Of a stretch of 64,000 bases of DNA, positions 50,016 through 52,575 are shown one piece after another (the first letter of the stretch is position 1; each line of letters starts with the position of its first letter). The stretch is from Tsukamurella sp. TY48 (GTDB taxonomy: Bacteria > Actinomycetota > Actinomycetes > Mycobacteriales > Mycobacteriaceae), in the NCBI RefSeq assembly GCF_019656655.1, contig NZ_BPMV01000001.1:1302001-1366000 (forward strand), in the 5' to 3' direction. The translations under genes were made by a program, and so were the position numbers. A model generated the notes under the pieces. It saw only the letters and a list, made by a program, of their open reading frames with translations. It was not told the origin of the DNA and ran no database searches.

Positions 50016-51167
50016 ATGTCCGACACCGTCAGCACCGCGATCTTCGCCAGCCCGTCCCGCTACGTGCAGGGCCGAGGCGCTCTCGACTCCCTCGGCGAGC
50101 ACGTCGCCAAGCTGGGGTCCACTCCCCTGATCGTGAGTGACGACACCGTGTGGGGCATCGTGCAGGACGGGGTGAGCGCCAGCTTCGACGCCGCCGGGCT
50201 CGCCGTGACGCGGGTGCCCTTCAAGCAGTTCGCGACGCCGGCCGCGGTGGACGAGCTGGTGGCGACGATCAGCTCCGGCGGCCACGACGTGATCCTCGGC
50301 GTGGGCGGCGGGTCCGCGATCGACGCCGCGAAGGCCGCCGGGCACCTCGCCGGCATCCGCTGGGTGAGCGTTCCCACCGCCGCCTCGTCCGACGCGCCCA
50401 CCTCGACGCTCGCCGTGATCTACACGGAGACGGGCGAATTCCTGGAGTACCGCTTCTTCCCACGGAACCCGGACCTGGTGCTAATCGACACCCAGCTGGT
50501 GGCGAACGCCCCGGTGAGCCTGCTGGTGGCGGGCATCGGCGATGCGCTGGCCACCTGGATCGAGGCCCGCGCCACGCGCCGCGGACGGGGCACCACGATG
50601 GCGGGCGGTCGCCCCACCCGCGCGGGCACCGCGCTCGCCGAGCTGTCGTGGGACATCCTGTGGGAGAACGCACTCCTGGCGATCGACGCCGTCCGCAGCA
50701 AGGTGGTGACCCCGGCGCTGGAATCGGTGGTGGAGGCGAACACGCTGCTCTCCGGCCTCGGCTTCGAGTCCGGCGGTCTCGCCGCCGCGCACGCGATCCA
50801 CAACGGTCTCACCGCCGCGCCGCAGACGCACGGCCTCACTCACGGTCAGAAGGTGAACATCGGCTCGGTCACGCAGCTGGTGCTGGAGGGGGCACCGTCG
50901 GTGGAGATCGAGGACTTCATCGAGTTCACCACGCAGGTGGGACTTCCCAACTCGCTCACCGAGATCGGCCTCACGCCCGAGAACACCACCGAGCTGGAGG
51001 CCATCGCCGAGGCCGCGACCGCCGCGGCGGAGACCATCCACAACCTGCCCTCGCCGGTGACGCCCGCGCAGGTCGTCGACGCCCTCAAGGCCGTGGAGGC
51101 CATCTCCCGTCGCGTGCGCATCGAGCGCGGTCTCCCCGAGCCGGTGAAGTACATCGCCCCCCACTGA
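50016..51167 (+). CDS. gldA: glycerol dehydrogenase-like Fe/Zn alcohol dehydrogenase
   Basis: A 383-residue group III polyol dehydrogenase. NAD site GVGGGSAIDAAKAAGHL; metal ligands in AGIGDALATWIEA (Asp), AAAHAIHNG (His) and HGLTHGQKVNIG (His). VPTAASSDAPTSTLAVIY is typical of GldA and glycerol-1-phosphate dehydrogenases. GAGGAG precedes the ATG. No dihydroxyacetone kinase lies nearby, so a role in glycerol use is unproven. Confidence 0.88.
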   Translation: MSDTVSTAIFASPSRYVQGRGALDSLGEHVAKLGSTPLIVSDDTVWGIVQDGVSASFDAAGLAVTRVPFKQFATPAAVDELVATISSGGHDVILGVGGGSAIDAAKAAGHLAGIRWVSVPTAASSDAPTSTLAVIYTETGEFLEYRFFPRNPDLVLIDTQLVANAPVSLLVAGIGDALATWIEARATRRGRGTTMAGGRPTRAGTALAELSWDILWENALLAIDAVRSKVVTPALESVVEANTLLSGLGFESGGLAAAHAIHNGLTAAPQTHGLTHGQKVNIGSVTQLVLEGAPSVEIEDFIEFTTQVGLPNSLTEIGLTPENTTELEAIAEAATAAAETIHNLPSPVTPAQVVDALKAVEAISRRVRIERGLPEPVKYIAPH

Positions 51168-51172
51168 CCTCA

Positions 51173-51234
51173 CATCTTCGGTGCCGAATTGCGACGCAGA
51201 GATGTGTTGTCACCGCAGTTCGGCACCGAAGATG
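51173..51234. repeat. 62-bp palindromic element, copy 1
   Basis: Arms of 21 bp with one mismatch (consensus ATCTTCGGTGCCGAACTGCG) flank a 20-bp spacer. It starts 6 bp after the gldA stop and ends 1 bp before the stop codon of the AbiEi/DUF559 gene. A second copy bounds the other end of that gene. As RNA it would be a strong hairpin for both converging transcripts. Confidence 0.85.
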
Positions 51235-51235
51235 C

Positions 51236-52084
51236 TCAGCCGCTCCAGCCACGGTCACGCAGGGCGGCCCGCGCGCGTCGGATCAGCGCATCGCGACCGC
51301 CGCCGAGTGACGACGCGGTAGCGAGCACGATGTCCCAGCCGTAGTCGTAGCGCAGGGTGTTCCACCGCTCGACGTCGAGTCGGTGCTGCTCAGGATCACG
51401 GTGGTGGGCGCCGTCGTACTCGACTGCCACCCGGTACTCCTCCGCACCGAGATCCACCCGGAACCGCCCGCGATCGATCGCCACCTGCGGCTCGAAGACG
51501 GTCAGGCCCGCGCGGTGCAGCGCGAGCCGGGTGTGCGTCTCCGGTGGCGACTCCGCCCGCCCGTCCGCCGCCCCCAGCACGGCCGCGACGCGGCGCGATC
51601 GATGCAGGTTCCGGTGCTGGTCCAGGTACCGCCGCATCTCCTCGACGGTGGTTGCCGCTCGGCCCGCCTCGTCGAAGCGAAGGCACTGATCGACTGCCGC
51701 GACCGCATCATCACCCGGGACGTAACGGGCCAGATCGACCGCGGTGCGCACCCCGGTCGTGAAGGCGACGCCGTCGACGTCGACCACGTCCTCCTCCGGG
51801 AGAACGCAGCGGCGGATCACGAGCCCTCGGCGGCGGCGATGCTCCGGCAGCCACACCTCCGTCGGCTTCCCTGCGCAGTAGGCCACCGAATGCAGAGCCG
51901 CAGCGGTCCACCCGCAGAAGACCGCATCCGGGTACAGGAGCAGGACGGCGTCGATGCGATCACGCAGTGTGATCTCGCGGCCGACCGGCGAGCGCACGCC
52001 GTGGAGCACCTGTCGAAACGCACTCCGAACCAGGTGCGGTGATGCCACCGCGTTCAAGTCCCGAGTGCGAATCGCCACATCCAT
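51236..52084 (-). CDS. AbiEi N-domain / DUF559 Vsr-like nuclease protein
   Basis: A 282-residue protein. The N-terminal third resembles the winged-helix start of AbiEi-type antitoxins (a helical start, then ITLRDRIDAVLLLYPDAVFCGWTAAALHS). The C-terminal third resembles DUF559/Vsr-like PD-(D/E)XK nucleases: RFRVDLGAEEYRVAVEYDGAHH (split here as RFRVDLG and VAVEYDGAHH), then RLDVERWNTLRYDYGWDIV, so Asp, Glu and the basic/aromatic tail are present. I start at MDVAIR; an upstream ATG would run into the flanking repeat. The gene lies exactly between two related 61-62 bp palindromes, unlike any neighbour, which suggests the whole 1.0-kb unit moves or is maintained as one piece. Confidence 0.75.
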   Translation of the reverse strand: MDVAIRTRDLNAVASPHLVRSAFRQVLHGVRSPVGREITLRDRIDAVLLLYPDAVFCGWTAAALHSVAYCAGKPTEVWLPEHRRRRGLVIRRCVLPEEDVVDVDGVAFTTGVRTAVDLARYVPGDDAVAAVDQCLRFDEAGRAATTVEEMRRYLDQHRNLHRSRRVAAVLGAADGRAESPPETHTRLALHRAGLTVFEPQVAIDRGRFRVDLGAEEYRVAVEYDGAHHRDPEQHRLDVERWNTLRYDYGWDIVLATASSLGGGRDALIRRARAALRDRGWSG

Positions 52085-52120
52085 TGGACGCATCGGCAGC
52101 GCCGATGGTCCCCAACCACA

Positions 52121-52181
52121 CATCTTCGGTGCACAACTGCGAGGAATCTGGAGTCTCCGCCGCAGTTCGGCACCGAAGATC
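52121..52181. repeat. 61-bp palindromic element, copy 2
   Basis: The right arm CGCAGTTCGGCACCGAAGAT is identical over 20 bp to that of copy 1; the left arm ATCTTCGGTGCACAACTGCG differs by 2 from the consensus, and the 19-bp spacer is unrelated to that of copy 1. It lies 37 bp upstream of the AbiEi/DUF559 start and 14 bp past the PPOX stop. Confidence 0.85.
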
Positions 52182-52194
52182 GCCTCGGTGAGGG

Positions 52195-52575
52195 TCAGGC
52201 GGCGTCGCGGACCCGGATCCCGACGGTGCCGTTCGCGCCCCGTCGGATCTTGGAACCGGTCACGGTGAGCCAGCCGAGGATGCCGTACTTGCTGCGGATC
52301 TGGGTGCCGGCGTCACCGCCGTCGACGATCTCCGCGACACCGGCGACCTGCGGGCCCTCGGTCTTCTTGCCGCGGGCGTCGCAGGCCTGCACCAGGACGG
52401 CCGGATTCTTGCGGATCCGCTTGACCTTCCAGGAGTCGGTCACGGTCCACATCACCAGATCGGCACCGTCGCGCACGGCCCAGAGCGGGGTGGCCACCGC
52501 GCTGCCGTCCTTGCGGTAGGTGGTGAGCATGACGTACTTGGCGTCGGCGACACTGGCGACGGTGGCTGCACTCAT
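52195..52575 (-). CDS. PPOX-class (F420/FMN split-barrel) protein
   Basis: A 126-residue split-barrel protein of the pyridoxamine-phosphate-oxidase-like class common in F420-using actinobacteria. KYVMLTTYRKDGSAVATPLWAV, TVTDSWKVKRIRKNPAVLVQACDARG and the final GTVGIRVRDA are typical of PPOX-class F420-dependent enzymes. TACGCT (52582-52587) ends 7 nt before the ATG, so it is leaderless. The substrate is unknown. Confidence 0.82.
   Translation of the reverse strand: MSAATVASVADAKYVMLTTYRKDGSAVATPLWAVRDGADLVMWTVTDSWKVKRIRKNPAVLVQACDARGKKTEGPQVAGVAEIVDGGDAGTQIRSKYGILGWLTVTGSKIRRGANGTVGIRVRDAA

Follow-up and report, generated by a model that had tools for sequence, protein, structure and literature searches.

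The window analysed here, a stretch of 64,000 nucleotides of the Tsukamurella sp. TY48 genome, carries a gene for an AbiEi/Vsr-like (MTES_1575/DUF559) nuclease (51236..52123, minus strand; 295 aa in its longest frame) enclosed by two palindromic elements, neither of which is assigned a strand. Element 1 (62 bp; 51173..51234) has 21-bp arms with one mismatch and a 20-base spacer. It lies one base from the stop codon of the nuclease gene and 5 bases past that of an iron-containing alcohol dehydrogenase (Fe-ADH) gene (50016..51167, plus strand), whose 3′ end faces it. Element 2 (59 bp; 52122..52180) overlaps the start of the longest nuclease-gene frame and is faced by the 3′ end of a pyridoxamine-oxidase-like (PNPOx-like) gene (52195..52575, minus strand), whose start was placed at the ATG at 52575 inside a longer frame reaching 52680. 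Both neighbours are context, the Fe-ADH gene lying outside the unit considered below.

The original prediction, made from the letters of the window, described paired hairpins of 61–62 bp with a common 20-bp right arm and unrelated spacers. These are real, with sizes of 62 and 59 bp: the right arms are identical at 20/20 bases, the spacers are unrelated and the left arms differ from the right-arm 20-mer by 1 and 2 bases. The claimed distance of 1 bp between hairpin and stop is also correct (the stop, TCA, occupies 51236-51238 and hairpin 1 ends at 51234). The distance of 37 bp before the gene start holds for an ATG at 52084 but not for the longest frame, whose ATG (52123-52121) lies inside an arm of hairpin 2, nor for the start suggested by the family consensus [VM]RPM, which places the likely true start at 52093 (MRPM...). 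The arms were matched four times in the 64 kb window with up to 3 mismatches, against 0.01 expected from shuffles, and the hairpins rank first and third among its palindromes by our own scoring. Both fold strongly as single-stranded DNA on either strand (z -6.3 to -8.9). Neither is followed by a T-run, reading the sequence by eye revealed no GTAG/CTAC or CGTC/GACG beside either stem, and no Rfam match was obtained between 50900 and 52500 up to E 0.5.

The window protein matches only AbiEi_1, MTES_1575 and DUF559 among Pfam models up to E 1, all weakly, and no HUH tyrosine transposase (IS200/IS605 type) is among these matches. The AbiEi_1 match (E 1.6e-05), the only one above its curated cut-off, lies in the middle of the protein, and PADLOC also reports AbiEi (E 6e-08). 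The C-terminal part matches MTES_1575 at 24.8 bits, under the curated cut-off of 38.2. A search of PDB sequences returned one weak nuclease match (3hrl, E 0.012). The MTES_1575 model is matched by 23/23 aligned family members at E <= 0.01 and AbiEi_1 by 2/23. Among the homologs in the same genome, L003 exceeds the MTES_1575 cut-off, whereas no Pfam model matches L004 or L005 at E <= 0.05. The antitoxin-like N-terminal domain originally proposed thus survives as a weak AbiEi likeness but not in its position: it is placed mid-protein, AbiEi_1 is rare in the family and no AbiEii toxin gene adjoins the window gene, whose two neighbours are those described above. A toxin-antitoxin or defence function was discarded as the main explanation, since there is no partner gene and the AbiEi matches are weak, and nothing was found in support of the suggested role as a self-protecting element. 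Carriage as phage or plasmid cargo was likewise rejected, matches occurring in 0 of 50,697 phage and 6 of 72,556 plasmid records.

Homologs of the window protein are numerous and most of those examined are bracketed in the same manner. At a threshold of E <= 0.001 its own genome contains five, including two weak ones (E 4e-05 and 3e-04), and 5/5 are bracketed, each by a pair with its own sequence (flank-to-flank scores for L001-L005 of 56, 69, 35, 84 and 65, L003 being the weakest). All 16 Tsukamurella genomes have homologs (91 matches in total). From these, 33 loci were taken into a comparison of flanks, 2 were dropped as too short and 28 of the 31 usable loci scored at least 34. The three below this value are L004, which scores 84 with corrected gene ends, L017, whose pair is plain by eye in the sequence, and L028. 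Members of the family occur in many other actinobacterial genera. When the best 80 of at least 510 relatives in the genome collection were examined, 57 were bracketed, scoring beyond the 99% point set by mismatched pairs of flanks, and 23 failed. This null reaches values as high as 94 because distant genera have real palindromes in common, and neighbouring genes were therefore taken as a second control. Only 8/218 of these (reading frames called by a rough codon-composition rule, with 8 loci left out) exceeded the same score, and chance pairing was rejected on this comparison.

Within the same best 80 of at least 510, Tsukamurella accounts for 22/24 bracketed loci and other genera for 35/56, although one of these 56, L128, titled as an Acidobacteriaceae MAG, is apparently the same contig as L034 (G012, contig 779), which is placed in Tsukamurella. 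The two have the same bracket sequence and contig number, and the record title disagrees with the genus placement. Bracketed relatives in this sample include Gordonia (1/1), Williamsia (7/7), Arthrobacter (2/2), Kitasatospora (1/1), Mycobacterium and kin (9/21), Nocardia (1/7) and a Dormiibacterota MAG. Several individual loci have features of their own. At L153 (Arthrobacter) each side of the gene carries the bracket repeat as a tandem run instead of a single copy. The brackets of L148 (Kitasatospora) and L139 (Williamsia) have long stretches in common, CCCGATGATGTGC... and TTTTGGCG, which hints at horizontal spread. The highest score among the control genes (L165:1274-2496, score 110; Mycolicibacterium xanthum) comes from a third copy of the local palindrome beyond this neighbouring gene, which presumably encodes a DUF2293 protein. 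Copies of the nuclease gene split between frames or carrying a stop were seen, for example, at G008:C1:730463/730720, G010:C1:2628592/2629047, G001:C2:8555/8818, G001:C21:248845/249429 and G003:C3:995559, and suggest that the gene often decays, with assembly errors a possible contributor.

Palindromes of the same families also occur alone. The original prediction had noticed the window hairpins nowhere else; this is true of the window, but the genome holds one more hairpin of this family, with no gene (C1:2387705, L006). Its other three arm matches, with 3 mismatches each, lack a matching inverted partner. A further two family hairpins lie 142 bp apart in the genome G004. Other families are more abundant. 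F1, defined as TTGAACNNNGTT...AACNNNGTTCAA, is present in 11/16 Tsukamurella genomes at 0-20 copies per genome, bracket copies included, and its reversed-pattern control gave 0; the search pattern fixes TTGAAC, GTT and their partners, so that conservation there is by construction and the counts are lower bounds. Genomes with an F1-type gene (n=7, six with bracketed genes and G010 with a broken one) have 7-20 F1 copies and those without (n=9) 0-13 (Mann-Whitney p 0.0009, a test which ignores kinship and includes the bracket copies themselves). G005 is an exception, with 13 F1 palindromes and no F1-type gene. By a rough ORF call, 14 F1 solos of G003 adjoin gene ends, several between convergent genes. 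The F6 family, that of L002 in the window's own genome, has a different geometry: the gene lies between inverted arms, and the solos have arms about 46 bp apart. The 18 F6 arm matches in this genome comprise 6 single arms, two arms at the gene and 5 solos that are complete by arm spacing, one of which was read in the sequence. F6 solos occur in 11/16 genomes (control, 1).

The F1 palindrome was further characterised using 40 distinct hairpins. Stem positions pair in 90.9% of cases (78.3% in shuffles), part of the outer stem being fixed by the search pattern, and the covariation score is 0.335 against 0.140 in shuffles, a value reached by 0 of 500. Both sides change in 10/19 pairs, a count that 162 of the 500 shuffles also reach. 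Compensatory changes keep the stems paired. The loop motif around CAGGT is nearly fixed (37/40, with CAGTT in 3), and no hairpin was dropped for want of it. A fixed loop on a variable yet paired stem would fit recognition of the folded strand.

Palindrome family and gene clade go together. Units are found at conserved loci in several species, and the protein tree groups them by palindrome family and not by locus: the F1 genes of loci D and E fall together (support 97/94), as do the F2 genes of loci D and F (support 99/97). L029 and L030, both at locus D, have flanks 92-93% identical and proteins only 55% identical. Likeness between palindromes correlates with likeness between proteins (Spearman 0.23, Mantel p 0.001, 41/42 loci, at least one locus being entered twice as L032 = L147 with identical flanks), and L017, the G004 gene at the site of the window, falls below the cut here in spite of its evident pair. 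Mean protein identity is 79% for the 35 pairs with like palindromes and 38% for pairs with unlike ones. Exceptions, with proteins in the range 64-87%, include L133/L136 (87% protein identity, palindrome likeness 0.34) and L139/L141 (66%, 0.09). The correlation is 0.25, 0.28 and 0.16 for the N-terminal, middle and C-terminal parts of the protein. At locus G, where the flanks are the same, the F6 gene with its inverted arms points one way in one species (L036/L132) and the other way in another (L133), as expected from recombination between inverted brackets.

Comparison of orthologous sites revealed empty, one-hairpin and hairpin-gene-hairpin states at the same locus in related species. Locus D carries a bracketed gene in G003, G004 and G010, a broken gene in G008, one hairpin in G005 and G009 and none in G014; in G000 no match to its downstream flank was obtained. 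The G009 solo agrees at its two junctions with the outermost junctions of the G003 unit, and no target duplication was noticed at the locus D junctions, the empty and filled sites coming from different species. Locus E is full in G003 and G009, has a broken gene in G010 and a solo in G005, G004 and G000. At this locus G014 and G008 (L293, L297) carry a GC-rich terminator-like hairpin at the place of the F1 palindrome of G005, G004 and G000 (L292, L294, L304), which gives the impression that palindromes land on terminators or take their place. At locus B the unit is present in G003, where the gene has an internal stop, and in G014, and absent from G009, G005, G010 and G008. The purU site, examined in 14/16 genomes, holds a full unit of another family in the window's own genome, a solo F1 in six, no palindrome in six and other DNA in G004. 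The sodA site is full in the own genome, while in seven genomes sodA is directly followed by the next gene and the other seven found differ downstream. Presence or absence of the gene at an orthologous site was thus seen at loci D, E, B and C and at the sodA and purU sites. The window's own slot is a poor empty-site test, the Fe-ADH gene being missing from the stretch in 12/13 other genomes. The original prediction had named two outcomes that would count against it, palindromes at random places with no link to the gene family and orthologous loci always lacking the elements; neither was seen, and the genome and its relatives yielded palindromes both with and without a gene.

Palindromes at a fixed slot can differ in sequence between genomes. 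At the window site of G004 the nuclease is 58% identical, against 84-95% for the hydrolase, PNPOx-like and Fe-ADH proteins, and it is bracketed by a different matched pair. For 42 F1 hairpins from 8 slots and 8 genomes, mean identity is 0.80 between different slots of one genome (117 pairs), 0.73 between genomes at the same slot (98 pairs) and 0.70 for the remaining 646 pairs; none of 2000 shuffles of the labels within slots attained the observed value. Two of these hairpins show the motif on either strand and entered the comparison in a single orientation. Between G003 and G009, 4/8 slots have clearly different hairpins (identity 0.68-0.79, flanks 0.91-0.93), the other 4/8 are alike (0.93-0.98, flanks 0.93-0.97) and hairpin orientation is the same at 8/8. 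Among more distantly related species, two slots differ in orientation. The L198 slot is taken by an F6 hairpin in the window's own genome and lacks a palindrome in G004; the L200 slot is without a palindrome in G000, G007, G008 and G014. These comparisons show that palindromes at fixed orthologous slots are replaced in a concerted way. Swapping of this kind points to a break mended from a cognate copy, instead of or along with new insertion. Part of the pattern could also arise by general recombination, by the transfer of entire loci from lineage to lineage or by selection on terminator function, none of which can be told from nuclease action by sequence comparison alone; the first two could account for concerted change with no part played by the nuclease.

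We therefore consider the window locus, with a probability of about 0.7, to be a full unit of a palindrome-plus-nuclease system that resembles REP/RAYT systems and uses an unrelated enzyme. In this system a low-copy AbiEi/Vsr-like nuclease gene would lie between two copies of its own palindrome of about 60 bp, with more palindromes of the same family standing alone in intergenic slots. We infer that the folded palindrome is what the protein recognises and that it cleaves at palindromes or at target slots. A break repaired from a cognate copy would then spread or convert palindromes, in a homing-like manner, and recombination between the two direct copies could remove the gene, with one palindrome left alone. 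Binding and cutting of palindromes by the protein, and any transposition, are thus predictions of this reading. The REP/RAYT analogy of the original prediction agrees well with the brackets on most examined family members, the dispersed solos and the empty, solo and full states, but not with the lack of an HUH transposase match and of a tag, and mobility is a conjecture drawn from these patterns. A bolder form of the proposal, to which we give clearly less than an even chance, is that these are palindrome-homing nucleases, forming a class of selfish or domesticated element that would be new. The AbiEi/Vsr-like enzyme would recognise a folded palindrome; in intergenic slots it would break palindromes that are non-cognate, or terminator-like hairpins, and repair from the cognate copy would overwrite them. 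The palindromes of a genome would in this way come to match its resident gene, and the gene itself could enter a slot between two copies.

Other explanations appear less probable. In an ordinary transposon the nuclease would be a cut-and-paste or copy-paste transposase, the brackets its terminal repeats, the solos MITE-like elements and the swapping repeated insertion at favoured slots. This would suit the F6 gene, whose inverted arms resemble terminal inverted repeats and recur about 46 bp apart in solos, as well as the filled and empty sites, the use of one slot by different families and the changed orientation at two slots in more distant species. The units, however, occupy conserved loci in several species and have not multiplied within a genome, the junctions compared, which come from different species, gave no sign of a target duplication, and all eight slots retain their orientation between G003 and G009 though four hairpins changed. 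Such a transposon is in our opinion unlikely.

We rate lower still the view that the palindromes, as intergenic terminators or structural repeats, are maintained for the host and homogenised by general recombination, the nuclease genes having merely landed beside them. It does not account for paired brackets far more frequent than at neighbouring genes, for palindrome families that follow gene clades, for several slots devoid of any palindrome in related species or for window hairpins lacking a T-run, even if solos do occur close to the ends of genes, in some cases convergent ones, and a terminator-like hairpin occupies locus E in two genomes where others hold a palindrome. Least probable, with a very small chance, is a type IV toxin-antitoxin-like gene or autoregulator for which the palindromes serve as operators bound by the gene's own product: the weak AbiEi similarity (the AbiEi_1 and PADLOC matches) and the palindrome at the gene start are offset by a matching palindrome at the gene end, solos far from such genes, the missing AbiEii partner and the occurrence of AbiEi_1 in few members.

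If palindrome homing by this nuclease family is true, it would be a new kind of system. Should the main reading be right, AbiEi/Vsr-like (MTES_1575/DUF559) genes, for which no assigned role was found, would be the enzyme partner of palindromic repeat families, a RAYT counterpart arisen with another nuclease fold. As originally supposed, no description of DUF559 or MTES_1575 genes with palindromes was found in the literature searched, a scope which leaves aside preprints and most subscription papers. Slots with differing palindromes in close relatives (flanks 91-97% identical) provide a natural experiment on repeat spread, and the gene, its palindromes and the empty sites are of a length that permits direct testing at the bench.

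Homing endonuclease genes can be present or absent at an orthologous site and may spread by cutting and repair. The genes described here share presence and absence at orthologous sites with them, may spread likewise, and differ in having palindromes at both ends which are also scattered singly over many sites. The AbiEi antitoxins of type IV toxin-antitoxin systems are resembled through the weak mid-protein match to AbiEi models; unlike AbiE, the window gene is without an adjacent AbiEii, its product has a nuclease-like C-terminal part and palindromes are found at both gene ends and dispersed. The Vsr-like MTES_1575 domain is described as part of a very large multidomain protein with HEPN, helicase and transglutaminase domains (PMC3710099). 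The C-terminal part of the window protein matches the Pfam model built on MTES_1575, but here it belongs to a stand-alone protein of about 295 aa with palindromes. The closest known systems are REP/REPIN palindromes with their RAYT (TnpA-REP) genes, REPtrons and TIRtrons (PMC3733652, PMC8049555, PMC8266576). In comparison with these accounts, the protein is MTES_1575/DUF559-like with no HUH transposase match; the palindromes are about 60 bp long with 20-bp stems and no GTAG tag, F1 having a CAGGT loop motif instead; and the host phylum is mainly Actinomycetota. The transposase fold and the tag thus set the system apart, while flanking palindromes and dispersed solos are present in F1 and F6, the window family having one solo in its own genome. 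What it has in common with REP/RAYT systems, so described, is a low-copy nuclease-type gene flanked by palindromes (terminal inverted repeats in TIRtrons), short palindromes dispersed near 3′ ends and between convergent genes, and a palindrome sequence tied to the resident gene.
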